Below, piece by piece: positions 423 to 21,718 of a stretch of 21,858 nt of DNA; positions within the stretch are counted from its first letter, which is position 1, and each line of letters opens with the position of its first letter. Source of the stretch: a virus. The stretch is taken from positions 1 through 21,858 of IMG/VR virus record IMGVR_UViG_3300021185_003455; one strand, written 5' to 3'. The position numbers were made by a program, and so were the translations under genes. Under the pieces are notes generated by a model, which ran no database searches, was not told the DNA's origin, and saw only the letters and a list, made by a program, of their open reading frames with translations.

Positions 423-442
423 ATTTTTACTATTAATCTATG

Positions 443-1532: not shown

Positions 1533-1552
1533 CTATCTACTAATATACAAAA

Positions 1553-2588: not shown

Positions 2589-2599
2589 ATGAGATTAAT

Positions 2600-2788
2600 T
2601 TAGTATTTAACATTTGATGAATACGGTTTTTGGTTTAGTTTACCACCTCTTGCCGCAGCAAGTGCCTTTTCATCTTTTGATAATTTTTTTAAATCAAAAT
2701 CACCTGCTGATATAGGAGTTTTATCTTTTCCTTTATCTGCTAATTTTGAAAAATCTGATTTATCGTATAAATCTTTTATTGAAGCCAT
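2600..2788 (-). CDS. Small basic protein of unknown function
   Basis: A 62-aa, lysine-rich, hydrophilic protein with no cysteine, membrane segment or motif that I recognise. The start at 2788 is well supported by AAAGGAG 9 bases upstream. The late-type motif ATATTTATA sits 23 bases before the ATG, immediately after the stop of the preceding structural gene. A dedicated promoter and strong ribosome site suggest high late expression, so a minor virion or assembly protein is plausible. It is the first gene of the unit that continues into the sulfotransferase, nuclease and glycosyltransferase-like genes. Confidence 0.7.
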   Translation of the reverse strand: MASIKDLYDKSDFSKLADKGKDKTPISAGDFDLKKLSKDEKALAAARGGKLNQKPYSSNVKY

Positions 2789-2811
2789 AGTTGTTTCTCC
2801 TTTTATATAAG

Positions 2812-2820
2812 TATAAATAT
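2812..2820 (-). promoter_or_regulatory. Late-type promoter motif ATATTTATA before the 62-aa gene
   Basis: The coding strand reads CATATTTATA, a perfect copy of the 9-base motif shared by five intergenic gaps here. It ends 23 bases before the ATG at 2788 and starts one base after the stop of the upstream gene. No TTG box is seen at the -33 spacing. Confidence 0.55.
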
Positions 2821-2821
2821 G

Positions 2822-4096
2822 TTATAAATCCATTCGAACGATAAAATTTACCGCCATATCTGGATATTTCTTTATTGGTTTGGGTAACTTTGCTACCGCT
2901 ACCAAGTTGTTATTATCATCATACAATCCTATTGTTGATACGAATGTTGTTAAATATGAACCTGTTGGGTCTGTTAAAGATTTGGAATAATAATCTTCCC
3001 AAGAACCCGTTACATAATCATTTGATTCCGAGCTTGTTATAGAACCATAATATTCAGAAACTCTATCGATTGTAGTTACTTCTTTAATTTTTCTTGTTCT
3101 AGCAGCTCTTTGCAATCTACTTCCAACCCTTATCTCACTTTCAGTAAAATCATAAGAACCACTTACAGTAAGAGAAATTGCCGATGGGTTTTGTGAATAA
3201 TTAAATTCACAATCTCCTGCTTGACATAGAACCTCTAACTCATGTATTGTTTTTGTAGAACGATATTCTAAATCATAATCAGTAACATCTTCTTCTTGTT
3301 CAGCAAGTGTTGTAAATAATATCAAACCATCTGCATAAAATACATTACCTATTTGTACATTCTCTAAACCAGAACCTAAAAAGTTTAATCCTTCTGCTAT
3401 TGTAATCTGTCCTTGACTACCTGTTTGTATAGCATCAGTAAAAGCATCCATTCTTTGAATAGTTCTATCATCTGTATCACCTTCCCAAGTTAGTTTTACC
3501 AATGGATTATTAAAATCAATACCATATGGTTGTTGTGCTCTAATGGTAATTGGTTGAGTATCATTATCTACAAATACAATATCAACTCCCCTTGAAAAAT
3601 CATTTTGAAACTGATTCATATCCATTCTAGTCCATTGGTATTCGGTAGTTTTAGCTCTTAAAACTCCTTTACCATCATCTGTTACTTCTGAACCAGATGC
3701 AACTGTGGGAGATGTTAATTTTATAGAAGATGGTTTTATACCTTCTCCATATTTTATTTGGTCTATATCAATTACATAAACAGTTTCTTCAAATCGTCTT
3801 TCATTTGAAAAATCATAAAGATTAGAAACACTTCCAAACATTTTTACTAAATCGTTTTGAACAAAGTATTTATGTCTAATTGATTTGTACATTGGATGTT
3901 TGTGATACGAATCTATAATAGAACCACTTATAGTTCTTTCAAATGTTGTAGAATCAAATGCCCCACTACCACTATGAAGTGCCGATGTTTTATCATATAA
4001 TTTTATGACAGGATAATCACCTTCAGATGCATAAAACTTTTTATACACCTTAAAGCTTCTCTGTTGAACGTTTGATTTAGCTATATTCTTTAACAT
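2822..4096 (-). CDS. Virion structural protein, paralogue of the 411-aa protein upstream
   Basis: A 424-aa protein that shares a chain of landmarks with the next gene upstream (4173-5408), so the two are diverged duplicates. These are 'YVIDIDQIKYGEGIKP' (107-122), 'GNVFYADGLILF' (250-261), 'FNYSQNPS' (298-305) and a C-terminal block 'STIGLYDDNNNLVAVAK' (387-403) followed by PI-K and a final R-M-D-L. I believe such proteins recur in marine T4-like phages as virion proteins, but I know no defined role. The start ATG at 4096 has AGAGGA 8 bases upstream. It has its own late-type motif at 4112 and a terminator separates it from its paralogue, so it forms its own transcription unit. It may be an abundant tail or head component; that is inference. 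Confidence 0.65.
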   Translation of the reverse strand: MLKNIAKSNVQQRSFKVYKKFYASEGDYPVIKLYDKTSALHSGSGAFDSTTFERTISGSIIDSYHKHPMYKSIRHKYFVQNDLVKMFGSVSNLYDFSNERRFEETVYVIDIDQIKYGEGIKPSSIKLTSPTVASGSEVTDDGKGVLRAKTTEYQWTRMDMNQFQNDFSRGVDIVFVDNDTQPITIRAQQPYGIDFNNPLVKLTWEGDTDDRTIQRMDAFTDAIQTGSQGQITIAEGLNFLGSGLENVQIGNVFYADGLILFTTLAEQEEDVTDYDLEYRSTKTIHELEVLCQAGDCEFNYSQNPSAISLTVSGSYDFTESEIRVGSRLQRAARTRKIKEVTTIDRVSEYYGSITSSESNDYVTGSWEDYYSKSLTDPTGSYLTTFVSTIGLYDDNNNLVAVAKLPKPIKKYPDMAVNFIVRMDL

Positions 4097-4111
4097 ACTA
4101 TAATTCCTCTA

Positions 4112-4120
4112 TATAAATAT
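4112..4120 (-). promoter_or_regulatory. Late-type promoter motif ATATTTATA before the 424-aa gene
   Basis: A perfect motif copy (CATATTTATA on the coding strand), 15 bases before the ATG at 4096. It begins 8 bases after the T-tract of the terminator at 4129-4153, the position expected of a promoter restarting transcription. The short spacing means the ribosome site AGAGGA would lie almost at the 5' end of the mRNA. Confidence 0.6.
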
Positions 4121-4128
4121 GTGGAAAC

Positions 4129-4153
4129 AAAAAACCCCACTCGTGGTGGGGTT
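4129..4153 (-). terminator. Rho-independent terminator after the 411-aa gene
   Basis: On the minus strand an 8-bp perfect stem AACCCCAC / GTGGGGTT with a 5-base loop runs straight into a run of T. It is GC-rich against a strongly AT-rich background and lies 19 bases after the stop of the 4173-5408 gene. Confidence 0.85.
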
Positions 4154-4172
4154 GATTATAGGTTAAGTTCTT

Positions 4173-5408
4173 TTAGAAATCAAGTTTAACTTTTATAAGT
4201 ACTTCTTTATCGAAAGATTTTTCAATAGGTTGTGAAGTTTTAGCTACTGCTAGAATTTCATTTGCATCATTCATCAATCCAATTGCTGTAATATAAGCTC
4301 TTGGGTCAGTTTCAAATGATGATTCTTTAAATGAACCATCTGAACCTGTTATGAATGTTGGGTTGTTAGAGAAGTTAAATTCTCTGTTCTGTGCTCTTAC
4401 AAAGTAATGTGATGTAGAAACGTTTTCTACTCTTCTTGCTTGGAAGTCACTACCACCTTTTAACATTTCATGTAATAAGAATTGGTTTTTACCTTCATGT
4501 GTAAATGTTTTACTCATAGTTTTTCCACCCACCGAACCACTATCAATTGATGTACCAACAGTTGCTTCAAGTGCAGCTGGATTTAAAACTATCAATCCTT
4601 GGTCTGGATAAAACAATCCAAATCCTTGTCCGTTAGCTGCTCCAGTTGAATACTTGTTTGCAACAGTTGCAGGATTTTCAGTTCCTAAATTAAGTGAACC
4701 ACTTACAATGTTAAATACTCTACCAGCTTTACCAACTGTATCTGAAAATTTCTTACCACTATCATCAATAAAGTTTTGTTTTCCATTAGAACCACTTAAA
4801 ATGAATTCCATATTACCTGGATCTAGTGTTTCTTTGTATCTAGCACGTGCTACATTTATAATGTACACATCTTCCGAATCATGATTATCACCAGATGCTG
4901 ATATGAATGAGAAAAGTGCATCATCTTCTTCTAATAAGATAGAACGATATTGAGCGTATGTTGCTTTAGCTGCTTGAGTAGATGAATCATCATTTGCTAA
5001 TGAGGTAGAACCACTACCATATTTGTTACCATATGCTACTGCATATTGTACTTCAGCTGATGAATCACTTGCAGGGTCTGTTGAATATACATTTAGGTAA
5101 TATTCAGAACTTGCTGCTACTGCTTGCGTGGATGATGTAAAAAAGGTTGATAAAGAACCAGTATCACCAGTCCATAAACCAGTTGTTACAGTTTCAACTT
5201 TACCTTGTACTGTATCAAACTCACCAAATCTTTTATATACACCAGTAGAAAGAACTCCCCCCTGAGAAGCAACTTTATCGCCACCAGTTAGGTAGTTGTT
5301 GATTATACCTGTTAATTGTTCAGAAGTTAGGTTACCATTATTCTGAGATAGATATGATGCTAAATCAGCTGATAAATTTACTCCTGCTTGTCCTTGTATC
5401 TGTGCCAT
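4173..5408 (-). CDS. Virion structural protein (first of a paralogous pair)
   Basis: A 411-aa Ser/Gly/Thr-rich protein without signal peptide, membrane segment or cysteine, as is usual for phage virion proteins. It shares with the downstream 2822-4096 product: 'VYIINVARARYKETLDP' (181-197), 'GLFYPDQGLIVL' (264-275), 'FNFSNNPT' (344-351) and a C-terminal block 'TAIGLMNDANEILAVAK' (374-390) followed by PIEK and a final K-L-D-F. The N-terminal 60 residues ('LTGIINNYLTGGDKV') have no counterpart in the paralogue. The start ATG at 5408 has AAGGAA upstream. It is cotranscribed with the 209-aa gene 17 bases upstream and followed by a strong terminator, a sign of high expression. I cannot say whether it belongs to tail, baseplate or head. 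Confidence 0.65.
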   Translation of the reverse strand: MAQIQGQAGVNLSADLASYLSQNNGNLTSEQLTGIINNYLTGGDKVASQGGVLSTGVYKRFGEFDTVQGKVETVTTGLWTGDTGSLSTFFTSSTQAVAASSEYYLNVYSTDPASDSSAEVQYAVAYGNKYGSGSTSLANDDSSTQAAKATYAQYRSILLEEDDALFSFISASGDNHDSEDVYIINVARARYKETLDPGNMEFILSGSNGKQNFIDDSGKKFSDTVGKAGRVFNIVSGSLNLGTENPATVANKYSTGAANGQGFGLFYPDQGLIVLNPAALEATVGTSIDSGSVGGKTMSKTFTHEGKNQFLLHEMLKGGSDFQARRVENVSTSHYFVRAQNREFNFSNNPTFITGSDGSFKESSFETDPRAYITAIGLMNDANEILAVAKTSQPIEKSFDKEVLIKVKLDF

Positions 5409-5425
5409 CGTTTTTTTCCTTTTTA

Positions 5426-6055
5426 TTAACTTGGTTGTACATAAGTAATGGTTACAGGAATAGTTTGTGAACCACCTGTTTCATTACCATATACAGTAAT
5501 CGTTGTCTTAATTGTTTGTGTTATACTTGGGTTAGGAACAAATGTAAATGTTTGTCCAACTTCTATGGCTGCTGTTGTTGTGATTTCTTCTCCTAATGCT
5601 AAAGGAACAGTTCCACTTCCAGCTGCAATACCACTACCTACAACAGAACCTGCGTTTTTATTAGAGAGAATTATAGTATATCCAGTTTGCGTATTACCAC
5701 TTGGTGAAGTAGTTGGTGTTAGAGAAACTTGACCTGAAGTTTGAGTTACTGAAATTGATGGGATACCAAATTCTACTTGTGGAATCTTCTTTGTACCTTT
5801 TGGTAAAGTTACCAATTTATATTTCAATACTTGAGTTTCATCTGGTGAAGCTTCTGTAATTGGGATTGCTTTAATTGCTGCATCATAATAAGCACTACCC
5901 TTTGGATGTGCTGGTTCGTACAATGAGTAATCTATCTCATCATCACCCAATGCAAACTTTGTTATGTTGATACCTTGACCCGTTGCGAGTAGTTCTCTAC
6001 CTTTTCTCGTAAGGATAGCATCAACTGTAATTTCTGAATTATCTAAATATGCCAT
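5426..6055 (-). CDS. Putative virion structural protein with Ig-like C-terminal region
   Basis: A 209-aa protein. The N-terminal 110 residues look like the conserved part: 'LDNSEITVDAILTRKGREL' (4-22), 'FALGDDEIDYSLYEP' (34-48) and 'DETQVLKYKLVTLPKG' (72-87). I associate this pattern with hypothetical virion proteins of T4-like marine phages, but not with a named T4 gene. The C-terminal half (about 110-209) is Thr/Ser/Gly-rich beta-type sequence ending 'TIPVTITYVQPS', and resembles an Ig-like or BACON-like strand pattern. The ATG at 6055 has AGAGGA 9 bases upstream, and the late-type motif lies 26 bases before it. It heads a two-gene unit with the 411-aa protein. Exact role unknown. Confidence 0.6.
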   Translation of the reverse strand: MAYLDNSEITVDAILTRKGRELLATGQGINITKFALGDDEIDYSLYEPAHPKGSAYYDAAIKAIPITEASPDETQVLKYKLVTLPKGTKKIPQVEFGIPSISVTQTSGQVSLTPTTSPSGNTQTGYTIILSNKNAGSVVGSGIAAGSGTVPLALGEEITTTAAIEVGQTFTFVPNPSITQTIKTTITVYGNETGGSQTIPVTITYVQPS

Positions 6056-6081
6056 AATTTATTCCTCTGTGTTATTCAATA

Positions 6082-6090
6082 TATAAATAT
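6082..6090 (-). promoter_or_regulatory. Late-type promoter motif ATATTTATA before the 209-aa gene
   Basis: A perfect motif copy, TATATTTATA on the coding strand, 26 bases before the ATG at 6055 in the 58-base gap after the giant gene. No TTG is seen at the -33 position and no hairpin terminator precedes it, so read-through from the upstream gene is likely. Confidence 0.55.
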
Positions 6091-6113
6091 AACTATTTTA
6101 TAAAATTAATTAT

Positions 6114-9100
6114 TTATTTAACATCAACTTCTAAAATTGGTTCACCAGCCCCCCTTGATGTATCAGAAACCTTAAGAATATTTGGATTCGTACAGAAGGT
6201 TTCTATTGGTGACTTTTTATCTAAAGTAGTTAAACTTGTTTGTATTGATGGAGATTTAAATCCACGATTTCCGTATTTACTACCTAATGAACCAACACCC
6301 GCTCTTTTACCCCCACTTGCATTTACTCTTTCTACTGCCGTTATAGTTCCACCAAGTTTTCCTCGTTCTCCAACTTTTGGACCAAATAGTTCTCCAGTTC
6401 TCGGACCAGAAGTAAATCTTCCAACTTCAGCAAATACTATATACTTTCTTGTTTTTGTTACTTTTTGTGTTGTTTCACCTAATGATGCATCATTACTATC
6501 TACTTGGATAGGTTCTGAAATTTCAAACTCCTCGGTTACAAGATAAACTTGTTTAGTTTCTTTTATTAAAGTACCATTACCATCTAATTTAGTAATTACA
6601 GCATATCCATTAACCGCAGTAATTCCTGCTAACCCATTTGTTAAGTTATCTGGATTTATACCAATTTGGTCTTGTGCACCAATTGCCTCAAACTGTTTTA
6701 ATAATTTATCAACAACTTTAGAATCTGTAATTGTACCATCAATTAAATCATACGTTGATACAAACGTTGGAGATAAATTTCTTAATCTACCAATAATATT
6801 TGCATAATTACCTTTAAATGTTGGATTTGATGATTCTATTACACTATCGTATTGATTTTGTAAACCTGCTAATTTAATTCTTTCTTTTAATTGTATATCA
6901 GCCGGCCATTGTGTTATTGGTATCATTGCAAGTTGTAAAGATTCTCTTAAAGTAACAACTCCATCTTGGAATTTAGAACCAAAATCTACTGCTTGGGGTT
7001 TTGTTCTTTTTACTTTATTTCTTTCAAGTATATGTGGTTCTATTAGTAATCCACTTGTAACAATTGCTCTAGCAGGTACAAGAGATTCTAATACCTCAAA
7101 TAAAGATTGGTCTATATATCTTACTAATTGAATATATTCATATAGATTAAGATTATATCTTTCAAAATAATAATTTCTTAATTCTCTAAGTTCCTTATAT
7201 TCATATTTGTATTCATCGCTCGGGTCACCGATATATTGGTCTAATTCAAACTGCCCTATGGATTTTAAAATATCCATATTAACTTCTTTTACAGGTGAAA
7301 AGAACAATCCTAACTTGTTTGTATCGATTGGAGATGTATCAAATGATTTTTTAGTTGAACGGTCTCTGTATGAAAGCGTTAATCCATATTCTATATCTTC
7401 ACTTAATCCTTGTTGTTCTTCAAATCTAAATTTTTGTGAAACGTTAAACCCACTTGAAGGAACATTTGCTGTTACAGTTCTTTCATATGGTGTGTAATGA
7501 TATGGATAAGTACTATTACTATCAAAGTTAGATGCAGTTACGAATGGAACTAAATATGATTCATTAATAGATACATTTTTAATTGCAGTATCTGCATTTC
7601 TATCTTTAGGATATTCAAAATCTAAACGAAGAAGTAAATCTTCAGTAGAAGATGAATGGTGATTACCATCAATTGCATCTGGCATCAATGTGTGATTATC
7701 TACTCGTGATTCTGATAATGGAGTTGTCCAATATCTAAATTCATCTATTGAACCAGTAAACGTAGAACCATCTCCAATCTTTAATGTAGTTTCGGTTTGC
7801 CAAATATGATTTTCAACTTCTATTGAAGCTGATACTTCACTTCTAATTCTACCCTGAAAAGCTTCTTTACCTTTTACTGTAAAGGTGTTATTACTTTTTT
7901 CAACTACTATTTGAGTATATTCATCATTAAAGAATGGAAAGGCTGATGAAGTTACCATGTATGCCGATGAACCATCAGCAACAGTCAATGTCAGTACTCC
8001 GTTTGTTCCATTTGTATGTTGTACACCAACATTCCATAATGAACTTGTTACGAATGTTTGGTCTTGTCTTTTATTGGAATTAACTCTAATTTCTACTGCA
8101 TTTGGATAATCAGATGTTTCACTATATTGTTTCCATGGAACTAATATTGATTCAGACCCACTAATGTTTAATGCTGCTGTTCTATCTTCAAATGAAAATT
8201 TAGATACACCACCATCAGCATTTCTTGGTCCACCAAACTCCATAATAGTTAACATCGATGATGGAACCCCATAACAAGCAAGAGCTGCTTTAACTGCTCT
8301 ACTTGAACCTTTATGTTTTAAAAGGTATGGTATATTGTTAAGTAATCTTCTCCAAACCTGATTTTGTATTTCTTTACCAGTTAGATTTGATACTGAAGTA
8401 CCATCGGATGTTTCACCAAAAGCATACTCCCAAAGTGATTGTGCTTTTGCAGGAACTTTAGTATCCCACCCTAATGATTCTAACATTTGAGAAAGTAAAG
8501 AATCATTTATACCAATATCATATTTATGTTCTAAGTTTTTCTTTTGAGCAATAGCTTTAGTGTATAAATAAAGTACATCAAAGTGATGTCCCATCATATT
8601 AAAGAACATTTTAAATTCTTCAGAATCTTCAGAATCTTGGACGTGTAGTGGTAAATTATTTACTAAATAATCTTTATTATATAAATCATAATTTTGTGCA
8701 TTAGCGCTAACACTATTATACCAAGTAGTTGCATCGTTGGAATCTGAAGCTGAAATTGAATTACCACCTGCTCCCGGATATGTTAATCCATCTGCAGAAG
8801 AACTTGTAAATAAGAACGTTTCAAATGCATCAAAATTATCTTTTACTTCTTGAACAGATTCAGAAGCTCTATTAATTTCATTTTTTAATGTTACTGAACC
8901 TGTGTGGAAAGAACCTGATTCTAATTTTGTTATTTTATCTTCGTAAAATTCTATTAATTGAATTTTATAAATAAAATTATTAACTCTTTCATTTGCAGAA
9001 GAATATTTTACAAAATTATTCCAAGCCCAAGTTGAATCAGTTTCAACTAAAAGAGAACCACTAACTTCTTTTGATGAACTTACAAATGGTATAGTTAATT

Positions 9101-11357
9101 TTTTTAAATCGAATCCACTACCACTTACATATTCTGTTAGTAGTTTTGTTGATGAAGATGAACCACTTGCTATTAAGTCATCATATAATTGATATCCAAT
9201 ATTTTCTCCACCACATATACCTGTTCCAAAATTTGGTGATAATTCAATACAATCTTCAAATTCTTCATTTAAAATAGTAATTTGTTCTACATAAGGAATT
9301 GATTGTATCTTAGAAACCCAAATTTGTTCATTTGGTTGTACTTCTCTTGGAAGTGGTTCGTATAATTTAAATACAAGAGTTTTTTCTTCATGTACTTTAG
9401 TTCTTTCACCAGTATCTTCACTAAATTCATATTTAGAAAAAGTTTCAAAATCAGTATCCCAAGATGCAATTACCTTGTTATTTGCATTACCAAAGTGCAT
9501 TAAGTGGGTTAAATATTTTGAAGAATCTCCATTTAGTATATCTGTATCAAACATACTACATAATGTTTCTTTAATATCTCTTAAAACTAAATCTCTTCTT
9601 AATTTAATATTACCCTTATCAAATTGAACTTGAATTGTTTCTGTTTTACCTTCCGTTTTAGAATCACCTTCTTCGTTATAAGGAATTAATTTTAATACAA
9701 ACGTTACAGCCTCTAAATCTTCATCTAAACTATTTCCTGCTTTTTTTAATACATCTTTAATATTAAAAGATTGTACTCCATCAGCAGGTCTTTTAGATGC
9801 TAATTTATATTTATCAATTACGTCATTAACGTATATATCTACATAATTTGTATTTATTGAAGTCCATGAAATTTCAAAATCAACATTATATCCTTGATAA
9901 TCTTTACCTGATATTAATTCAGGATAATCTATTGTTCTGATATCAGGACCTGGTAGTAAATCTTTTCTTTCTGCTCTGAATTTTATTGGTACGATATTTC
10001 CGGTACCATCTCTCTCACTTACTGCTTGAAAATATGCAGTATAATTACCGTTTCCATTAAACAATTCAGATTCATTTATGGTAACTACACCACTCGCGTT
10101 TTGGATAGATGTAGTATCACCAAATGTAAAGATTACAGAGTCTGCGTTAGTAGAATCAAAACTTATAGTAATATCATCACCATTGGGTTGCCCTTCTCCA
10201 AAATAAATTATATTAGAAGTACCTTCAAGTTCAGCCGTTGTAGTTACAGCTTTTGGACCAATAGCGGCAGTTCCTCTTGTTTCGGTTGAATCTACATAAT
10301 AAGTGTCTCTTCTGTATTTATATGTTGGAGTATCTTTTGGTGGGTCTGGAACTGCAGTTTTACTTACTGTAATTTTTAATCGATATGTACCAACCGCTAA
10401 ATCATCTGAAAATGCCTTATCCTTACTACTTGATAGTAATCCACCTCCTCCATTAAATAATTCATATTGATAATTACAAGTAGTATCTGTTCCTGATAAG
10501 GTTACAGCTAATGCTGACCCAACAGATTCATTATCTACTAATACGGCACCAGTTTCACCTACTGGTCCTTTTCCTGTTATACTTTCTGACTTAGTACCTA
10601 ATACTGCATTTGCTGTAACACTGTCTGGTGCATTAAAATCAATATCAACAGTAATTCCCTTTGGAATTTCTACAATTATCTCTTCTTTTTTAAACTTATA
10701 TACACCTTTATATGATGCTGCCGCTCCTTGAGCTCCTTGTCTTATTGTTTTTACAATTCCACCATTATTGCGTATTACTACCTCGTAAACATTACCACCT
10801 TTTGGATTTGTTTTATCCGGATTTGTTTGTGTTGATATTTGAAAGTTATTACTTGCTGGACCATAACCTCCTGCTTTCGCTTTAAAAGTTTTTGTTTGTG
10901 TAAACTCAGATGATGACCAAATAGTTTTTGATTTCCCTGAATTATTTACTGAAAAATCAATGTTTGGGTCAGAACCAAAAGTTAATGAAAATGTAAAATG
11001 AATTGGGATTGTTGCAAACGATATTTCAACGGGATCAAAATCACTAAAATCTATATCAATATAATCTTCAAGTCTATCATTATTTATTCCAATGACTTGA
11101 TTTCGTTGATTTATATTGGTAACAACAGTATTTCTAGCATCTTGACCATAGTCAACTCTATTTGGGTCACTAGTTTGAAAGGCTCCAGTATTTGTTGTAC
11201 TACTAGGTAATGATTGAGAAGTCGCACGGCTTGAATCACCCATGATACCACCCGAACCAAAGTTACTTACTGGAGACCAGTCATATCCAGTCCATTGATA
11301 TTGTCCATCAAATGAAATTTCACCCCGTTGTTTACCTCTGTAATTTGGTACTGCCAT
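6114..11357 (-). CDS. Giant modular tail/baseplate protein with P2 gpI-like region and LamG-like lectin domain
   Basis: A 1747-aa protein, the largest gene here. Residues 1-80 are Ser/Asn-rich. Residues about 90-580 are beta-rich with Ig-like character. Residues about 910-1040 are helical and contain 'VWRRLLNNIPYLLKHKGSS' with 'RAVKAALACYG' following, which resembles the Tail_P2_I (P2 gpI) pattern of a KGT-type turn then a helix ending in 'YG'. About 1054-1252 looks like a LamG/concanavalin jellyroll, ending in 'GSIDEFRYWTTPLSESRV'. Residues about 1360-1445 ('LRELRNYYFERYNLNLYEY', 'LVPARAIVTSGLLIEPH') are another conserved-looking block, and the C terminus is beta-type. The start has AGGAG upstream. 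It is far larger than T4 gp7 or gp10 but occupies a comparable place after gp6, so a wedge or fibre-anchoring role with sugar binding is inferred. Confidence 0.7.
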   Translation of the reverse strand: MAVPNYRGKQRGEISFDGQYQWTGYDWSPVSNFGSGGIMGDSSRATSQSLPSSTTNTGAFQTSDPNRVDYGQDARNTVVTNINQRNQVIGINNDRLEDYIDIDFSDFDPVEISFATIPIHFTFSLTFGSDPNIDFSVNNSGKSKTIWSSSEFTQTKTFKAKAGGYGPASNNFQISTQTNPDKTNPKGGNVYEVVIRNNGGIVKTIRQGAQGAAASYKGVYKFKKEEIIVEIPKGITVDIDFNAPDSVTANAVLGTKSESITGKGPVGETGAVLVDNESVGSALAVTLSGTDTTCNYQYELFNGGGGLLSSSKDKAFSDDLAVGTYRLKITVSKTAVPDPPKDTPTYKYRRDTYYVDSTETRGTAAIGPKAVTTTAELEGTSNIIYFGEGQPNGDDITISFDSTNADSVIFTFGDTTSIQNASGVVTINESELFNGNGNYTAYFQAVSERDGTGNIVPIKFRAERKDLLPGPDIRTIDYPELISGKDYQGYNVDFEISWTSINTNYVDIYVNDVIDKYKLASKRPADGVQSFNIKDVLKKAGNSLDEDLEAVTFVLKLIPYNEEGDSKTEGKTETIQVQFDKGNIKLRRDLVLRDIKETLCSMFDTDILNGDSSKYLTHLMHFGNANNKVIASWDTDFETFSKYEFSEDTGERTKVHEEKTLVFKLYEPLPREVQPNEQIWVSKIQSIPYVEQITILNEEFEDCIELSPNFGTGICGGENIGYQLYDDLIASGSSSSTKLLTEYVSGSGFDLKKLTIPFVSSSKEVSGSLLVETDSTWAWNNFVKYSSANERVNNFIYKIQLIEFYEDKITKLESGSFHTGSVTLKNEINRASESVQEVKDNFDAFETFLFTSSSADGLTYPGAGGNSISASDSNDATTWYNSVSANAQNYDLYNKDYLVNNLPLHVQDSEDSEEFKMFFNMMGHHFDVLYLYTKAIAQKKNLEHKYDIGINDSLLSQMLESLGWDTKVPAKAQSLWEYAFGETSDGTSVSNLTGKEIQNQVWRRLLNNIPYLLKHKGSSRAVKAALACYGVPSSMLTIMEFGGPRNADGGVSKFSFEDRTAALNISGSESILVPWKQYSETSDYPNAVEIRVNSNKRQDQTFVTSSLWNVGVQHTNGTNGVLTLTVADGSSAYMVTSSAFPFFNDEYTQIVVEKSNNTFTVKGKEAFQGRIRSEVSASIEVENHIWQTETTLKIGDGSTFTGSIDEFRYWTTPLSESRVDNHTLMPDAIDGNHHSSSTEDLLLRLDFEYPKDRNADTAIKNVSINESYLVPFVTASNFDSNSTYPYHYTPYERTVTANVPSSGFNVSQKFRFEEQQGLSEDIEYGLTLSYRDRSTKKSFDTSPIDTNKLGLFFSPVKEVNMDILKSIGQFELDQYIGDPSDEYKYEYKELRELRNYYFERYNLNLYEYIQLVRYIDQSLFEVLESLVPARAIVTSGLLIEPHILERNKVKRTKPQAVDFGSKFQDGVVTLRESLQLAMIPITQWPADIQLKERIKLAGLQNQYDSVIESSNPTFKGNYANIIGRLRNLSPTFVSTYDLIDGTITDSKVVDKLLKQFEAIGAQDQIGINPDNLTNGLAGITAVNGYAVITKLDGNGTLIKETKQVYLVTEEFEISEPIQVDSNDASLGETTQKVTKTRKYIVFAEVGRFTSGPRTGELFGPKVGERGKLGGTITAVERVNASGGKRAGVGSLGSKYGNRGFKSPSIQTSLTTLDKKSPIETFCTNPNILKVSDTSRGAGEPILEVDVK

Positions 11358-11382
11358 TTTCTATTTTTCTCTCCTATTATCT

Positions 11383-13407: not shown

Positions 13408-13420
13408 TTTTATTTTTTAA

Positions 13421-14749: not shown

Positions 14750-14750
14750 T

Positions 14751-15815
14751 TTATTTCTCTATTGTAAAAGTTAAATCCTTATCATCAAAATATTCTATAA
14801 CACCATCTCTATTAGTTTTAATCTGAATATAGTAATCTCTATTATATTCCCAATTGGTTAAATCTAATTTAAAGAAATTACCAGTTGAATCACACGAAAC
14901 TTTTGTGTAATCATCATCAAATGGAATTATAATCTCATCAGTTAATATATCTTTTATCTGATAATAAGTAGTTGATGGTAAAAAATATAAATCTGTATAT
15001 GAGTATTCATTAGTATATGTTTTAAGAGGATATTTTTCTCTTCCGAAAACTCTGATTGTAGGTTTACTTCCACGCTTGTATCTAGTCTTTAATCTTTTAA
15101 ATGTTACATGAATATCATCAGCGGTAAGTTCTGTTAAAGAGCCAGTAGAGAATGAAGAATCATCCCAACCAATTCTCAGTTTAGGTTGGTATATTGTATT
15201 TGTTTCTTTTGAGAAGAATTTTAATTGCCCATAATCATTAGTATCATTTTCTAATGATGTATCGTGTTTTAAAATAAATCCCTCATTTGGTAGAGTTCCA
15301 CCAATCCACTCATCCATAGTTGTTTTAACATCCATTTCTATATCAGATGATTCGTATGAAAAAGATTGTGATGAAAATGAACCAGTGAACCAAGTTCCTC
15401 CCTTACCATTAAATGAACCAGTTGTATCAGATGAATGTTCTTCAAGTGATAACCAGTCTTGTCCTGTGTTTACAGAGTTCCAAGATACACCATCAGTTGT
15501 AATATCATCGAAACGAGTACCTATACCCATTTCCCATGATTGTGTTACTGCATAAGCATATATTGTATAATCAATTGGAATTTCAGATGATTCACATTCT
15601 TTAAGAATCATATCTACTGCACTCATTGTTACTTCACCACTTGCAATAGATTGTGAAAGTGGAGTTGTTTCAAATTTAATTACAGAATGTGCAATATCTT
15701 TTAAACTTCCATAATAAGTTTTAGAAACTTCTAAAATTTCATCTAAACCAGTATTTTGAGATGGTTGTTGTAAGTAAATAGTTGCATCTTTAGATGCTGT
15801 TACGAATTGATACAT
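14751..15815 (-). CDS. DNRLRE-like domain protein in the baseplate module
   Basis: A 354-aa protein. Residues 1 to about 218 follow the DNRLRE family pattern: 'DATIYLQQPSQNTGLDEIL' (10-28), 'AHSVIKFETTPLS' (42-54), 'TRFDDITTDGVSWNS' (about 99-113), 'EMDVKTTMDEWIGG' then 'EGFILKHD' (about 160-185), and 'YQPKLRIGW'. This beta-sandwich is usual in bacterial extracellular and carbohydrate-active proteins, where it is thought to act as a structural or binding module. Residues about 220-354 are another beta-rich region ('DIHVTFKRLKTRYKRGSKP') of unknown family. The start overlaps the gp6 stop by one base (TAATG), so its translation is probably coupled to gp6. A role in a wedge-attached fibre or side plate is inferred from position. 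Confidence 0.65.
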   Translation of the reverse strand: MYQFVTASKDATIYLQQPSQNTGLDEILEVSKTYYGSLKDIAHSVIKFETTPLSQSIASGEVTMSAVDMILKECESSEIPIDYTIYAYAVTQSWEMGIGTRFDDITTDGVSWNSVNTGQDWLSLEEHSSDTTGSFNGKGGTWFTGSFSSQSFSYESSDIEMDVKTTMDEWIGGTLPNEGFILKHDTSLENDTNDYGQLKFFSKETNTIYQPKLRIGWDDSSFSTGSLTELTADDIHVTFKRLKTRYKRGSKPTIRVFGREKYPLKTYTNEYSYTDLYFLPSTTYYQIKDILTDEIIIPFDDDYTKVSCDSTGNFFKLDLTNWEYNRDYYIQIKTNRDGVIEYFDDKDLTFTIEK

Positions 15816-17848
15816 TATACTACCCTCCCTTTTATATCCTTACCCGGATATTTTAATTCAAATACAGATGGGTCTAAAGATGGATAAACCATTTTTCCCT
15901 TTGTTGCTGATTCAATATTGTATTTTATTTTAGAGTATGAACCTCCACATTTATTTACAATTTCACATTTTGGAACAGATTGAACTCCCTCTACACCAGC
16001 AATTAGTAATTCAATTTCAGAAATATTGATAGCTTGATTAAATGTCCAATTATCAATATTAAAATGATTTTCAATCTCTGTAATGCATTGTAGTAGAACT
16101 TCTCTTTTGTTATATGAATTATAAACCATTATTTCAAAATCAAGCCCTATATTAATTATAAATCCATTTAATAAATTTATACCATCCGTTAACATTCTAT
16201 ATTCTGATAAGTATGTTTTTAGATTTTCTTTAACTGCTTGGTTTAAGTTCGTTAAATATTTATTAGAATCATATCCTAGCACATATAAATTAATGGCAAA
16301 TGGATTATTTTTTTCGTTATTTGTAGTTTTTCCAACTAAGAATCTTTGTAATTCTGTTTTTATTTCTGTTTCTGTTTTTTTATTACCACTTAGTTGTTGT
16401 ACTAATCCTGCAAATTCATCTAAAGTATCAGGTGTGTTTAATATTGAAGATGGTGAGTTATTATCCAACTCTCCATCCGGTGCACAATACGCTTTTGCAA
16501 TACCACCATACTTTGCTGGTAATGATAATGCTCTTACTTGATAATCTTTTCGTGTTACTGCTCTATTTTGTGAACCAAAATGTGCTAATCCATTCTGTCT
16601 AATTTCTTCTAAGGTTTCAGCACCCCTACCACCACTGGCAGGAATTTCATTTTCAGCTGCAATTGAATTCTTTACAGTTCCATACATTTGAAGTTCATCA
16701 TCATCAAATAAAGATAAATCCTCATCAAATTCAATGTTTGTGATACGCTTAATCTCTCCTTTTGCAACATTTGAATTAACACCACCACCAACTAAATATC
16801 TTACAGTAAGTGTAGTATTACTTGGTGCTTGTCCATATGATTTAGTTTTTAAGAAGTTAGCAGGGTCAAATGATGCACCTAATTTATCGATTGAATTATT
16901 TAATCCCAATCCTACATTTTTAAAATTTGGTAGTAATGTTTCATCTGAAGATGTTGAATTACCTCCTCCGAAAATAATACTTGTTGTATTATCTTCATTT
17001 ATTTTAGTAGTAAATCTTCTAGAAGTTTTTGTTACTTTCAAAATTTGAGGTACTGATTCTTTAAACTGCGCCAAATCGTTATCAAATTGAGTGGTGTTCA
17101 CATAATCAGTATAAATAAGTTCTTGTGCTAAATAAGGAACCTCATACCATTTGTTTCCATTAGAATCTCTTACATCATATATTTCAATAATATTTTTATC
17201 TGAAAAATTTATTGTATCAAACTGTTTAGGACTATTAAATGATTTATTTATAGTTTTAAGTTCTGCAGAAATTGCTGGAACATATTTTCTTATTAAATAA
17301 AAAGTGGGTTCTTGTAATTCGTTTCTTTGATAGACACTTATCTCTCTATCAGTTATATCATTAAAATCTACAAGTTCTGTTGTTCTAAAGGAAACACCAG
17401 TACTTGATGTTAATTCCATACCTTCTTTAATTCTAAGAAGATATCCTGCATCTAATTCGAATCGGTTATCACCATCATATAAATCACCACTTGCTTTTCT
17501 TTTACTTGGAACAAGTTGATAAACTGATATACTAGTAAGTGCCGCAGATGTAGTTTTTGGTTTGTATCCAAGAAAGCTAGATAAGTTAATAACATTAGCT
17601 CTATCTTCTGCCGAGTGAAGCATTGATTCTTTTAGAGTATCATCTATATAGTAACCAAGAACATCTCCTAAATAAGATGCCATTTCAATGAACATCATAC
17701 CCGGAGAAGCTTCATTAAAATCTGAATATGAAGTAGGGAAATATGTTTTGGCATACTCAATAAGATTTTCTCTAAATTGACCGAAATCTTTATTTAGATA
17801 TTTTATATCTCTACCCTTATTTTTTTTATTTGTTGTATTTAAAGCCAT
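15815..17848 (-). CDS. Baseplate wedge protein, T4 gp6-like (baseplate J family)
   Basis: A 677-aa homologue of T4 gp6 (660 aa), the protein that forms the ring of baseplate wedges and drives the structural switch at infection. The N-terminal region is diagnostic: 'YLNKDFGQFRENLIEYAKTYFP' spread over 17-38, 'SDFNEASPGMMFIEMASYLGDVLGYYID' over 42-69, then 'LLHSAEDRANVINLSSFLGYKP'-type sequence to about residue 97. A J-like region about 405-460 contains 'GAETLEEIRQNGLAHFGSQNRAVTRKDY'. The ATG at 17848 follows the gp25 stop by 6 bases. Gene order gp25 then gp6 matches T4-like phages. Its stop overlaps the next start. Confidence 0.9.
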   Translation of the reverse strand: MALNTTNKKNKGRDIKYLNKDFGQFRENLIEYAKTYFPTSYSDFNEASPGMMFIEMASYLGDVLGYYIDDTLKESMLHSAEDRANVINLSSFLGYKPKTTSAALTSISVYQLVPSKRKASGDLYDGDNRFELDAGYLLRIKEGMELTSSTGVSFRTTELVDFNDITDREISVYQRNELQEPTFYLIRKYVPAISAELKTINKSFNSPKQFDTINFSDKNIIEIYDVRDSNGNKWYEVPYLAQELIYTDYVNTTQFDNDLAQFKESVPQILKVTKTSRRFTTKINEDNTTSIIFGGGNSTSSDETLLPNFKNVGLGLNNSIDKLGASFDPANFLKTKSYGQAPSNTTLTVRYLVGGGVNSNVAKGEIKRITNIEFDEDLSLFDDDELQMYGTVKNSIAAENEIPASGGRGAETLEEIRQNGLAHFGSQNRAVTRKDYQVRALSLPAKYGGIAKAYCAPDGELDNNSPSSILNTPDTLDEFAGLVQQLSGNKKTETEIKTELQRFLVGKTTNNEKNNPFAINLYVLGYDSNKYLTNLNQAVKENLKTYLSEYRMLTDGINLLNGFIINIGLDFEIMVYNSYNKREVLLQCITEIENHFNIDNWTFNQAINISEIELLIAGVEGVQSVPKCEIVNKCGGSYSKIKYNIESATKGKMVYPSLDPSVFELKYPGKDIKGRVV

Positions 17849-17854
17849 AATTTA

Positions 17855-18286
17855 TTATCCCTGAACTACAAACGTTACGTTATCAGTTTCTATACTATCT
17901 CCCATAGAAAACTTAATATCCATACCAACTTGATTTCTATCTTTCATTTCATCGGTCAATTCAATATTAATTTCATCTATTTTTATATACGGTAACCAAA
18001 AGTTAACACTTTCAGTTATTACTTTCTGTATGTTGGTTTCAAACTCCCTATCATCCATTTGTTCAAATAAGAATGAATGTAATCCGGTTCCAAACTCGGG
18101 TTGCATTATTCTTTCTCCTTTTGCAGTTAAAAGAAGATTTCTTAAATTCGTTTTAGCTGCCTCAAATGCCGAATATGTTGGATTAAACAAAGTGCCACTA
18201 TTAGTAGGATATTCAAAACCATATGCATAGTTATCAAATTCACTATCTGTATCTTTTACTATTCTTTTTGGTAAAACGTATGACAT
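17855..18286 (-). CDS. Baseplate wedge protein, T4 gp25-like
   Basis: A 143-aa protein of the gp25/GPW lysozyme-like fold family (T4 gp25 is 132 aa). In contractile tails this protein joins the wedge to the sheath and starts sheath assembly. The hallmark is at 47-75: 'TNLRNLLLTAKGERIMQPEFG' reads across this region and continues 'TGLHSFLFE'. The end is beta-type and acidic. The start ATG at 18286 overlaps the stop of the 20-aa Cys/Gly ORF (TAATG), and a G-run 8 bases upstream may serve as ribosome site. The gene is immediately followed by gp6. Confidence 0.92.
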   Translation of the reverse strand: MSYVLPKRIVKDTDSEFDNYAYGFEYPTNSGTLFNPTYSAFEAAKTNLRNLLLTAKGERIMQPEFGTGLHSFLFEQMDDREFETNIQKVITESVNFWLPYIKIDEINIELTDEMKDRNQVGMDIKFSMGDSIETDNVTFVVQG

Positions 18287-18348
18287 TATTTACCCCCACA
18301 TCCACAGCCACATCCGCAACCGCCATCTAATTTATTTTTGTTTATCAT
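18286..18348 (-). CDS. 20-aa Cys/Gly-repeat microprotein
   Basis: A 20-codon ORF below usual length limits. It begins MINKNKLD and continues with four cysteines alternating with glycine ('GGCGCGCGCGGK'). Its ATG overlaps the stop of the 190-aa gene (ATGA) and its TAA overlaps the gp25 start (TAATG), so it fills a gap of 58 bases with exact coupling on both sides. That fit is the main reason to call it real. Alternating Cys-Gly suggests metal binding or disulfide formation, possibly in virion assembly, but I know no family for it. Alternatively the stretch could be spacer that happens to be open. Confidence 0.55.
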   Translation of the reverse strand: MINKNKLDGGCGCGCGCGGK

Positions 18349-18917
18349 TTTTTAAATTTTTTAACTAATGCAGAATTATCTCTGTTTAGAATTCTATCTA
18401 ATCCAGGCAGACCAGTTGTTACACCCAATCCACCTTGTTTTTTTCCACCAACACCTGGCATATCTCCATATCCCATTTGCGCTGCCATTGAAGCTTTCAT
18501 TCCATCTAAACCTGCTCCTGCTCCTTGTTGAGTAAACTCAACTGTTTTATCCATACTTTCATTCACTTGTGGTTTCTGAAATGAATCTAACACAGATTTT
18601 GGAGAAACTCCACCTGATTTTTGTTCTTTAGTAAATGGTTTAGTATTTCTTAGTGCTTCATTTAATGCTTCATTTTTAGATAAAACCCTTTTAGGTTGTT
18701 CTGTTCTTTCATTTTCTAATACTTGTTCAGCCATTTTAAATGGGTCTACTTCTTCACTAACCACATTGTTTGTAGATTTATTAGAAGTTTTTGATGTACC
18801 ATTAACTGCCTCAGCAAGTATTGCTGGGAATTGATTTTTAAGAAAGTTTTCATGTTTCTTAGCAACTTCAACTTCCACTAATGCTTTTACTACTTTGATT
18901 AATTGTTTTTGTTTCAT
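18345..18917 (-). CDS. Putative virion protein of unknown function
   Basis: A 190-aa protein, rich in Lys, Gln and Asn. The N terminus is a predicted amphipathic helix ('KQLIKVVKALVEVEVAKKHENF' over 4-25). The middle is low-complexity and probably disordered (40-130). A Gly-rich stretch (132-169) leads to a short conserved-looking ending, 'LDRILNRDNSALVKKFKK' (173-190), which resembles the ends of hypothetical proteins near gp25 in marine T4-like phages. No Shine-Dalgarno is visible; the leader is A-rich. It heads the long unit started by the late-type motif at 18945, and its stop overlaps the microprotein start. A connector or chaperone for the baseplate is possible but not shown. Confidence 0.6.
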   Translation of the reverse strand: MKQKQLIKVVKALVEVEVAKKHENFLKNQFPAILAEAVNGTSKTSNKSTNNVVSEEVDPFKMAEQVLENERTEQPKRVLSKNEALNEALRNTKPFTKEQKSGGVSPKSVLDSFQKPQVNESMDKTVEFTQQGAGAGLDGMKASMAAQMGYGDMPGVGGKKQGGLGVTTGLPGLDRILNRDNSALVKKFKK

Positions 18918-18944
18918 TATTTCTAAAATTTTCTTTTATCTTAA

Positions 18945-18953
18945 TATAAATAT
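18945..18953 (-). promoter_or_regulatory. Late-type promoter motif ATATTTATA before the 190-aa gene
   Basis: A perfect motif copy (TATATTTATA on the coding strand) 27 bases before the ATG at 18917, in the 57-base gap after the 319-aa gene. It would drive the long unit containing gp25, gp6 and the adhesion genes. Confidence 0.55.
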
Positions 18954-18974
18954 ATCTTTGTTAGTTTTATGGTT

Positions 18975-19934
18975 CTAATCACAATCACCACAACACTTTC
19001 TTCTTTCCTCAGCAAGTTCTTGTCTGATTTGTACTATTGATTTTTGTAATTGTAAAGAGCTTCTATCCTTTTTTGCATCATCTAATAATTTACCTACCAT
19101 TAAATCAGCTTCATTAAAAAATCGTTCTCTTCCTAATACATCTTTTTGAGTTTCTGCTCTAAGTATATCATCTAAATTTGATTCTAAAGTACCCCCACTT
19201 GATAATCTTGCTCTAAGTTCATTATCTATTTGTTCAGAACCACCCCCTTGTTGACCTGGATTAAATGGTACATTATTACCACCAAAGGTTGAGCCATCTA
19301 AGGAACCAAAGTTTCCATCTGCTCCAAAGTTTGCGTCTCCACCCAACTTTAAAGCTGGAAACGGAATGTTTGGTATTGAATAACCTACCCATTGTAAAAC
19401 ACCAGGACCTGGAATTGGAGCTGGTGCGGAAGGATACAAAGATGTTGTCATATACATTCCTTTTAAACTAAATAAATGTACTTGCATAAACAGAACCATC
19501 ATATCTAAAAATGATAAACAAGAATCGGTTGGGATTTCAAATGGTACATTTGGCCATGTGCCAGGTGAAGTTACCATAGCTGAATTTGCTAATATGTTTT
19601 GTACTGAACCTGGTGCTGGTATTAATGGGGTAGGGAAGGGAAGTAGTGTAGCTCCAGTCCAATATCCCTTTACTGCATTACCAACATCTTTTAAAAAAGC
19701 ATGTTGAGCAGGAACTCCCTTAGTAAGTGCCATTGTATGTGCTACAGTCATCATAGTAATGAACAAAGGTAGATTTCCTGCAGCAACTGGATTTTTATGT
19801 ATTAACTGTCCACCCCGTCTTATGCACATATCATATTCCATCGCCAATTTAGCAGCGTACTGAGGATATGCAACAACTCCAAGAGGATTGTTCATGTATA
19901 GTAACATATTTACTTTGAACAATTTCCAAGACAT
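18975..19934 (-). CDS. Hydrophobic baseplate-module protein with C-terminal CC-x-x-C
   Basis: A 319-aa protein. Residues 1-165 are unusually hydrophobic, Met- and Pro-rich, with two stretches that could be buried or membrane-seeking helices: 'LPLFITMMTVAHTMAL' (55-70) and 'FLDMMVLFMQVHLFSL' (about 142-157). A Pro/Gly-rich linker (about 166-230) follows, then a charged helical region ('LRAETQKDVLGRERFFNEADLM'-type sequence, 250-312). The last residues are 'RKCCGDCD', giving Cys314, Cys315 and Cys318, which could bind metal. It lies 4 bases after the gp5-like spike gene, so a hub-associated or membrane-contacting role is an attractive inference. I do not recognise a named family. Confidence 0.6.
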   Translation of the reverse strand: MSWKLFKVNMLLYMNNPLGVVAYPQYAAKLAMEYDMCIRRGGQLIHKNPVAAGNLPLFITMMTVAHTMALTKGVPAQHAFLKDVGNAVKGYWTGATLLPFPTPLIPAPGSVQNILANSAMVTSPGTWPNVPFEIPTDSCLSFLDMMVLFMQVHLFSLKGMYMTTSLYPSAPAPIPGPGVLQWVGYSIPNIPFPALKLGGDANFGADGNFGSLDGSTFGGNNVPFNPGQQGGGSEQIDNELRARLSSGGTLESNLDDILRAETQKDVLGRERFFNEADLMVGKLLDDAKKDRSSLQLQKSIVQIRQELAEERRKCCGDCD

Positions 19935-19938
19935 AATT

Positions 19939-21216
19939 TTACTCCGTAAAGTTTTTTATTGATTTTATTTGGTCTAATCTAGCAGCAATTGCTTCAAATT
20001 CAGGAATATTTAGAGGGCCCTTAGCAGTAGGTCCTGCTGGAGTTGCATAAATTTGATTTTTAATAGCAGTAATCATAGCATCTAAAATATCAACTAATGT
20101 TTGTGCTCTTGCAAGAGGTTCCTTTTGACCAGTACCACCATTACCACTATCATCAGTATTTAATCGTATTTCTCCATTACCAGTTTTGATAGTAAAGTCA
20201 GCATCATTTCTGTTAGTAGTTATATTTACAGTATCACCGAAATCTAAATCAGCTCCAGCATTACCATTATCAATTGTGAATTTACCATCAGATATGAATC
20301 CATAATTTCCTTTTGAGAAAAATATCATTTCAGCTGCTTTGGATGAAAGGATAATTCTTTCTGAGTTGATTAGTATTTGGTCTTGTCCTACATATTCTTC
20401 AGGTATTTCAAAGTTTATAGGAGTAGTTTCAAAGTTGGAAGAACCACCATCATCTATAAGACCTGGTTGAAATGGCATTTTATAATCTTGAGAGGTAAGT
20501 GCTATAATTGAACCATCTTTATTTACATCTTCTTCTGTTAGTTCGTTTAATTTTAAATTGTTTTTTCCTTCATCATTCTCTCTGTTACGGATGACAAGCG
20601 TTGGTGAAAATGATTGTTCTTCGTTATTATAAGCAGAAAACCTAATTGATTGTCCAAACCTTGATTGTATTATTTTATCACCTTCATATAAACGTAGTTT
20701 ATGTACTACTTCTGGTTTAAAATACTCACCAAGTTCAGAATCTCTTTCCGCGGTATCTGATTGTGCTGTTGATGTTTGAGATACTTCAGAATAAGAATCA
20801 CTATTTGGCTGTGATTCTTCACTACTTTCAGATAATCTTTCTTCTACATTTATTTTTGCATTACCAATATTAATATTAGTACTTGGTATTCTTTTATAAT
20901 AGTCAATACCACCAACAAATATAAGTTGAACCGTTTCACCTACTAAGGGTATTCCCTCATCGGGTAACATGGGTGCATAAAAATTTAAATTCTTTTTATT
21001 TGGAGTTAAATCATTAAGTTTCCTTATTTTAGAATGTCCTATATAGGCATCAGATAATTTAGAACTTTCTTCACTACTACCGATTGTAGGTATATTTTCA
21101 TCATCTTCATTCAAGATGACGTGTTCTACAATACCAACATTTATTGATTTTCCCCCAATATTAAAATTATTAGATGCTGATTGATATTGCTGTGATATTG
21201 ATTTTCTACCAGCCAT
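19939..21216 (-). CDS. Baseplate central spike protein, T4 gp5-like without lysozyme domain
   Basis: A 425-aa protein that I read as the tail spike. The N-terminal part (about 25-110: 'GIVEHVILNEDD', 'LVGETVQLIFVGG') and the part after a Ser/Glu-rich insert (127-165) together resemble an OB-fold, with the conserved strand 'EGDKIIQSRFGQSIRFSAY' at 178-196. Residues about 278-355 ('ILINSERIILSSKAAEMIFF', 'GFISDGKFTIDN', 'DFTIKTGNGEIRLN') are short beta repeats typical of the spike beta-helix. The end (365-422) is helical. T4 gp5 (575 aa) has a lysozyme domain between OB and helix; no such domain or catalytic motif is visible here. The start overlaps the previous stop by one base (TAATG). Confidence in the spike role is good. 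Confidence 0.78.
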   Translation of the reverse strand: MAGRKSISQQYQSASNNFNIGGKSINVGIVEHVILNEDDENIPTIGSSEESSKLSDAYIGHSKIRKLNDLTPNKKNLNFYAPMLPDEGIPLVGETVQLIFVGGIDYYKRIPSTNINIGNAKINVEERLSESSEESQPNSDSYSEVSQTSTAQSDTAERDSELGEYFKPEVVHKLRLYEGDKIIQSRFGQSIRFSAYNNEEQSFSPTLVIRNRENDEGKNNLKLNELTEEDVNKDGSIIALTSQDYKMPFQPGLIDDGGSSNFETTPINFEIPEEYVGQDQILINSERIILSSKAAEMIFFSKGNYGFISDGKFTIDNGNAGADLDFGDTVNITTNRNDADFTIKTGNGEIRLNTDDSGNGGTGQKEPLARAQTLVDILDAMITAIKNQIYATPAGPTAKGPLNIPEFEAIAARLDQIKSIKNFTE

Positions 21217-21626
21217 TACTTACCTACCTTTTGCTTGAGTTCTTCAATTTCATTTGTAAGTTCATCAACCTTTAAGTCTTGCTCATCAACAACCTCTTTT
21301 GCAGTTTCTTCTAATTGAGAAAGTAACTGTTCTTTTTCATCATCAGAAAGAAAGCCAGTATCACCTTCAGCTTTTTGAGCTGCTCCTATAATTCTTTGTG
21401 CAATTGCTGCCATCTTGATTAGCGAATCATCGTTCTTAACTGATGTATCTACTAAATCTTTTATGATGGGACCAATTACTGCCATATCTCCTGCGTGTCT
21501 AATCACCTTTTTCATTTCAGCAATTAGTTCTGAGATTCTTTGTTTCTTGTTTATCTGATTCTCATAGATATCTTTAAACAATCCACTAAGGTTCTTACCA
21601 GGAAATAATTCAAAATCTGTACTCAT
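21216..21626 (-). CDS. Small coiled-coil protein of the baseplate module
   Basis: A 136-aa, highly charged, mostly helical protein. The N terminus 'FELFPGKNLSGLFKDIYENQ' (5-24) looks conserved. A central helix (30-90) precedes a C-terminal coiled coil with regular heptads ('LDEL..EIEELKQKV'-type, 100-134). It is the first gene of the unit driven by the motif at 21648, and its stop overlaps the spike gene start. That tight coupling suggests it works with the gp5-like spike, perhaps as a hub or chaperone component. I do not recognise a named T4 equivalent. No clear Shine-Dalgarno precedes the ATG. Confidence 0.6.
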   Translation of the reverse strand: MSTDFELFPGKNLSGLFKDIYENQINKKQRISELIAEMKKVIRHAGDMAVIGPIIKDLVDTSVKNDDSLIKMAAIAQRIIGAAQKAEGDTGFLSDDEKEQLLSQLEETAKEVVDEQDLKVDELTNEIEELKQKVGK

Positions 21627-21647
21627 TATTTTACCATATTAGTTGTA

Positions 21648-21656
21648 TATAAATAT
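21648..21656 (-). promoter_or_regulatory. Late-type promoter motif ATATTTATA before the 136-aa gene
   Basis: A perfect motif copy (TATATTTATA on the coding strand) 21 bases before the ATG at 21626 and 8 bases after the T-tract of the terminator at 21665-21691. The same terminator-then-motif layout occurs at 4112-4153. Confidence 0.6.
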
Positions 21657-21664
21657 AGTAAATG

Positions 21665-21691
21665 AAAAAACCTCACTTTTTAGGGTGAGGT
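21665..21691 (-). terminator. Rho-independent terminator after the small hydrophobic gene
   Basis: On the minus strand a 7-bp perfect stem ACCTCAC / GTGAGGT encloses an 8-base loop and runs into a T-tract (complement of 21665-21670). It lies 27 bases after the stop of the gene at the right edge. Confidence 0.85.
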
Positions 21692-21718
21692 CTTTAATCA
21701 ATTGATTTCAATTAATCC

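Follow-up and report, generated by a model that had tools for sequence, protein, structure and literature searches.

A single-element, very probably late promoter in T4-like phages of Bacteroidota and a candidate gp55-like sigma factor

The viral DNA analysed here, all 21,858 nucleotides (nt) of IMG/VR record IMGVR_UViG_3300021185_003455 (hereafter the window), carries five identical copies of a nine-base motif, ATATTTATA, each placed shortly before a gene. With high confidence this motif is a phage promoter, and very probably it is a late one. The motif, its conservation, the class of gene that follows it and a second promoter class all emerge from comparison of sequences across a large group of Bacteroidota phages, most of them uncultured. 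A candidate phage sigma factor accompanies the motif in many of these relatives, though not in all. To our knowledge, little is known of gene timing in Bacteroidota phages. The comparison provides concrete consensus sequences for late and for host-type early promoters, and it names a candidate sigma factor, gp118 of the cultured phage immuto. It also points to a possible natural change of sigma specificity relative to T4 gp55 (central AA to TT) and provides a means to infer late operons across many metagenomic contigs.

All five copies in the window lie on the minus strand, which is the coding strand of the annotated gene run, and the plus strand has none. They are found at 2812-2820, before orf62 (2600-2788) and the genes after it; at 4112-4120, before orf424 (2822-4096); at 6082-6090, before orf209 (5426-6055), the ortholog of immuto gp107; at 18945-18953, before orf190 (18345-18917), the head of the baseplate gene run; and at 21648-21656, before orf136 (21216-21626) and the genes after it. 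The gaps from motif end to start codon are 23, 15, 26, 27 and 21 bases, respectively, and the original prediction described these copies correctly as identical, intergenic and 15-27 bases before a start. Intergenic DNA, which holds all five, amounts to 520 of the 21,858 bases (2.4%). Because 47 of the 569 AT-only 9-mers in the window are wholly intergenic, the chance that five of five would be so is about 4e-6, if the copies are independent. The number of copies is by itself modest, with five against 1.56 expected and 3 of 100 shuffles reaching five.

The window virus is represented by a single record, and genome-wide motif counts were therefore made in relatives. A search of IMG/VR with the gp6-like baseplate wedge protein (gene at 15815-17848, minus strand; PHROG 219/10646/6) found at least 599 relatives, from which 80 loci were kept (910,770 bases, 97.6% coding by a simple open reading frame caller). 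The named relatives, at 38-40% wedge identity, are Flavobacterium phage immuto, Mel-JY01 and the uncultured LR756508. Among the 170 copies of ATATTTATA in the 80 loci, 145 are intergenic, on the strand of the gene and less than 100 nt before its start. The other 25 comprise 9 sense copies in genes, 8 antisense and 8 elsewhere, so that the 145 upstream copies stand against 17 inside genes, far from the equal frequency that would speak against a promoter. When no motif was preset, ATATTTATA was the top enriched 9-mer upstream of genes, occurring in 122 of 263 regions against 2.64 expected (reverse complement, 4). In 54 more distant loci the top 8-mer was ATATTTAT (63 of 366 regions against 4.3 expected; reverse complement, 7); AACGGGAGA ranked above ATATTTATA among their 9-mers, and the core of the wider group is [AC]TATTTATA. 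The exact motif is present in 116 of 195 upstream regions of at least 30 nt, and the other 79 hold one-mismatch copies in a ratio of 20 forward to 3 reverse. Forward and reverse copies number 25 and 2 in the relative G001, 16 and 1 in immuto, 17 and 6 in Mel-JY01, 7 and 3 in LR756508, and 6 and 7 in T4, which served as control.

Conservation of the motif follows the heads of operons. The three operon-head genes orf190, orf136 and orf209 have the motif before 142 of 174 orthologs (64/65, 63/89 and 15/20, respectively), against 3 of 472 for nine other window genes; many of these nine are intra-operon and almost gapless, and the contrast shows operon-head placement rather than providing an independent test. 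Six of the 18 window genes in this tally have no ortholog and one has a single ortholog; orf424 and orf62 have none, so conservation of the motif was counted for three of the five genes that bear it. Thirteen of the 17 copies in immuto are upstream of genes by the simple caller (two are sense in genes, one is antisense and one is elsewhere), and the genes behind them encode TerL, tail sheath, tail tube, baseplate hub, tail spike and a lectin-domain protein, others being mostly hypothetical. G001 has 19 of 27 copies upstream of genes; of the ten targets that were scanned, three are clear (tail sheath, baseplate hub and head-tail adaptor), one resembles tail-fibre assembly, another a cytidyltransferase, and five have no informative match. 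In Mel-JY01 the exact motif stands at the portal and tail tube genes, and the hub gene has ATATTTATG. The identified targets in relatives are mainly virion genes (sheath, tube, hub, terminase, portal). Enrichment, operon-head placement and virion targets together bear out the original proposal of a late-type promoter, very probably a correct one, and we infer from them that virion genes are transcribed late from the motif.

The surroundings of the motif are those of a promoter with a single element. In 116 of the 145 sites, 20-28 nt separate the end of the motif from the start codon. A profile of 124 distinct sites, seeded on the exact motif, has T just before it in 53% and just after it in 66%; nothing is conserved near -35/-33, and no second motif occurs upstream. 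The original prediction of no -33 TTG box holds, as TTG is found at -28 to -14 from the motif start in 13 of 124 sites, whereas a control stretch lying farther upstream has it in 42 of 124. Terminator-like hairpins lie at most 70 nt before 16 of the 124 sites, compared with 2 of 77 controls. Two occur on the minus strand of the window. One, with a T run, lies at about 21665-21695 (fold -14.3 kcal/mol, z -4.4), immediately upstream of the 21648 motif, and is absent from the consensus terminator scan of the window. The other, at 4133-4153 (fold -14.2 kcal/mol, z -3.5), resembles an intrinsic terminator and leaves only 12 nt before the 4112 motif, too few for another promoter there. If its first A is placed at -11, the motif agrees with the host -7 element, yet C is allowed at that position in immuto and the distant loci; the invariant bases fit better when the TA of TATTTATA is placed at -12/-11. 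Five late sites in close loci lie just 3-4 nt before ATG, which limits the start site on its downstream side and suggests nearly leaderless late mRNAs; the position of the start site relative to the motif is otherwise one that we infer as part of the proposed model.

The T4 late box reads TATAAATA in the direction of transcription. The original prediction regarded the window motif as its inverse. That reading is unneeded, because TATAAATA is nearly its own reverse complement and, in the same orientation, TATTTATA differs from it at just two of eight bases, the central two. The T4 form itself is upstream on the gene strand in just 10 of its 250 copies in the 80 loci. PMC2988020 describes the T4 late promoter as a box of 8 bp that lies about one turn before the start, has no -35 element, and is recognised by gp55 together with gp33 and the gp45 clamp. 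Both systems place one short AT-only -10-type element before virion genes and dispense with a -35 box, and in both the reader, here a candidate, is small and divergent, with a sigma region 2 fold that is predicted in the present case. Unlike gp55, which has 185 amino acids, the candidate here has 232-264 (12 aligned) and extra C-terminal helices. The gp45-family clamp (phrog_223) was found in none of nine relatives, with T4 positive, and the bacterial clamp PF02768 gave nothing above the cut-off in seven records; several of the records are fragments. PMC2988020 also covers late promoters inferred in silico in T4-like phages of Vibrio, Aeromonas and cyanobacteria, whose consensus it calls highly similar or closely related to that of T4. 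They share with the present motif an in silico, -10-only consensus accompanied by a gp55 homolog, and differ in that the consensus here is another one, in phages of another phylum. The portion of the literature that was searched contained no description of the ATATTTATA motif or of a late promoter of such phages.

A second promoter class occurs in the relatives before primase and other non-virion genes. It consists of TTTGG, about 17 nt, and CGTATnTTTr (more loosely CGTAnnTTTr), and has the form of the Bacteroidota sigma-A promoter (PMC6847099, PMC9723704). The window has one such site on its minus strand, with a -33 box TTTGG at 470-474 and a -7 element CGTATCTTTA at 443-452; read as TTTGG plus TATCTTTA (443-474), it has A replacing the last G of the -7 consensus TAnnTTTG. 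It precedes a partial DNA primase gene of the replication class (3-422, minus strand; PHROG 47), which matches immuto DnaG. Host-type sites stand before primase in five of seven records scanned (G001, G002, G003, G004 and the window), immuto and G005 having none upstream; they also precede PolA in G001 and G002, and DnaB in G002. Ten proteins behind host-type sites include the replication proteins helicase and endonuclease (both G001) and DNA polymerase, while the others are glycosyl- or methyltransferase-like, nucleotidase-like or without an informative match. Judged by sequence, then, promoter class differs between virion genes and replication genes. The short core CGTATnTTT has 41 upstream matches but 88 antisense inside genes, and the gene-level scan used just forms with the -33 box, or TTTG with TAnnTTTG. 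A looser host-type pattern, tried in the ortholog tally, also catches the late motif (11/20 for orf209), and its counts were not used.

Early promoters take another shape in immuto, which has no upstream sites by the strict host-type patterns: they read TATATTTAGG, and some of them have TATATTTA in common with the late motif, an overlap that may reflect an evolutionary link between that motif and the host element. Between positions 67635 and 73824 of immuto, eleven TTG...TTTAGGTATCaataattaaaa sites that are nearly identical and mostly precede small genes look like an array of early host-type promoters. Mel-JY01 (PP395634; loci L265-L274), although deposited as a Microcystis phage, combines the late motif and an ortholog of the candidate sigma factor with promoters of the Bacteroidota type (TTTGG..CGTATATTTG, in front of an SSB homolog); the phage may in truth infect a Bacteroidota bacterium that was present in the culture. 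Genome bins contain relatives of the sigma at 12 loci, six titled Bacteroidota and the rest other phyla or unnamed bacteria. Since binning of phage contigs is unreliable, the host is argued from promoter type and from the immuto isolate.

A possible reader of the motif is found in several relatives. The T4 gp55 family profile, phrog_234, run against nine relatives and T4, matched T4 and immuto gp118 (E 0.008), and Pfam sigma region 2 matched a protein of LR756508 (E 0.006) about as it matches T4 gp55 itself (E 0.0045). The immuto and LR756508 proteins are orthologous, each encoded about 4 kb upstream of the wedge gene. A profile of this family matched 7 of 13 records (G001, G003, G008, G009, immuto, Mel-JY01 and LR756508), the others being T4, G002, G004, G005, G006 and G007. 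Where at least 7.5 kb is available upstream of the wedge gene, 10 of 15 loci have the sigma gene, placed 4-10 kb upstream, and at least 595 IMG/VR stretches encode a relative. In the nearest window relative that bears it, the end of the gene is about 6.2 kb from the wedge gene on the upstream side, whereas the window extends just 4 kb upstream of its own wedge gene; if this order holds, its sigma gene would lie about 2 kb outside.

Two AlphaFold models of the family (pLDDT 66.7 and 79.9) are all helical, with a predicted sigma region 2 spanning roughly residues 15-120 and further helices up to residue 226. VIA-align ranks T4 gp55 (7d7c_F) first for one (Z 10.7; 121 residues, 5.5 Å) and joint first for the other (Z 10.2; 120 residues, 5.0 Å). 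Judging by titles, every row that it showed is a sigma factor or an entry on RNA polymerase initiation, including RPSH, RPSB and RPSD, which we take to be sigma H, B and D; Foldseek likewise lists mostly sigma factors. Pfam sigma region 2 was matched by one of 12 family members (E 0.051). The commonest weak Pfam match, Nmad2 (3 of 12 members, best E 0.0022), was taken for chance, and a search with phrog_12791 matched T4 only. Some members of the close clade, not others, have YIDxDYL-like C-terminal tails whose likeness to a clamp motif was judged by eye. The gp118 family proteins are likely sigma factors. The gp55-like sigma gene envisaged in the original prediction therefore has a counterpart of predicted gp55-like fold in many relatives, and was not found in all.

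The explanation favoured here, which we consider probable as a whole, is that ATATTTATA serves one clade of T4-like Bacteroidota myoviruses as a -10-like, single-element late promoter. In this view the phage encodes, often near the baseplate genes, a gp55-type sigma factor (the immuto gp118 family), which would bind the host RNA polymerase core and direct it to ATATTTATA; virion genes would then be transcribed late, while replication genes would use the host sigma-A promoter (TTTGG / TAnnTTT). That the gp118-type protein reads the motif is suggested by their company in genomes and by the parallel with T4. A more specific version can be put forward tentatively, in which these phages have a late system of their own: a one-piece sigma factor combining a gp55-like region 2 with a C-terminal helical domain in the role of sigma-4 or gp33, no T4-type clamp, a TATTTATA-type element and some almost leaderless late mRNAs.

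Several observations weigh against this explanation. The loci are related to one another and their motif counts are not independent, and the top k-mers in 25 loci around the sigma gene, in immuto alone and in G001 alone are host-type or early rather than ATATTTATA. As to the sigma assignment, phrog_234 matched just one of the sigma-bearing records (immuto), hhalign of the family to gp55 gave a probability of 1.9% (E 0.026), a sequence search of solved structures with the family gave no hits, Foldseek returned none at E 0.001 or better and placed gp55 at ranks 28 and 18, and VIA-align warns that Z below about 13 may reflect a common helical arrangement. Five of the 15 loci with at least 7.5 kb upstream (L052, L059, L067, L083 and L085, at 61-63% wedge identity) have the motif, yet the 7.5-10 kb upstream of their wedge genes contain no sigma gene, and the 126-kb G002 and 67-kb G004 carry the motif without a sigma match. 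Conversely, the huge phage LR756508 has a sigma ortholog (L130 1294-2004; also L275-L284), but the 162 upstream regions in the 200 kb read do not contain the motif; the specificity of this sigma may have changed. These mismatches, and the majority of phage genes being without annotation, would suit a late promoter read by a different phage factor, such as a second sigma, an activator or a phage RNA polymerase. We think this unlikely, as G001, G003, G008, G009, immuto and Mel-JY01 all combine the gp118-type protein with the motif, all records without it are fragments, and the multisubunit polymerase family PF00623 was not found in seven records (14 of 14 controls positive). A search for the single-subunit family PF00940 gave no match in any of its controls.

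That host sigma-A might read TATATTTA as a variant -7 element, with no phage sigma involved, is quite improbable. One register does fit TAHHTTT (T-12 A-11 T-8 T-7 T-6), and F. johnsoniae promoters show little sign of the -33 box (PMC6847099 for both the consensus and the box); T precedes the motif in about half of the sites, the immuto early promoters described above lend the idea further support, and the motif shares with the Bacteroidota sigma-A promoter (TTTG / TAnnTTTG) its AT-richness, TTT core and host group. Unlike that promoter, however, the late motif has no -33 box, no conserved T-12 and no conserved G-5. In the profile, which was seeded on the exact motif, T-12 is kept at only the frequency given above while positions free in the host consensus are fixed; in that register the base at -11 is C in 10 one-mismatch sites of immuto and 16 of the distant loci, and separate host-type promoters with a -33 box precede other genes. 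The same facts, including the one host-type site of the window, make a hybrid adapted to the host polymerase, as originally suggested, unlikely. It is scarcely credible that the motif is an mRNA leader element acting in processing, stability or ribosome standby. Its rather fixed distance to the start codon would suit such a role, but terminator-like hairpins directly upstream leave no space for another promoter, five sites stand just 3-4 nt from ATG, and the 124 sites lack a second motif upstream.

An E. coli-type promoter scan of positions 1-20000 gave 83 sites against 106.8 in shuffles and is uninformative. A second baseplate wedge gene, in a gp25-like position, lies at 17855-18286 on the minus strand (PHROG 261/43). 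The gene at 1553-2053 is labelled NAD synthetase by PHROG, but its start, FIYKITNGKTNEFYIGKKQ, resembles by eye a GIY-YIG nuclease. Cys-rich repeats, also noted by eye, occur at 11383-13407 within a large gene of the virion cluster, and a sulfotransferase-like gene at 2016-2588 belongs to the unit behind the 2812 late promoter.

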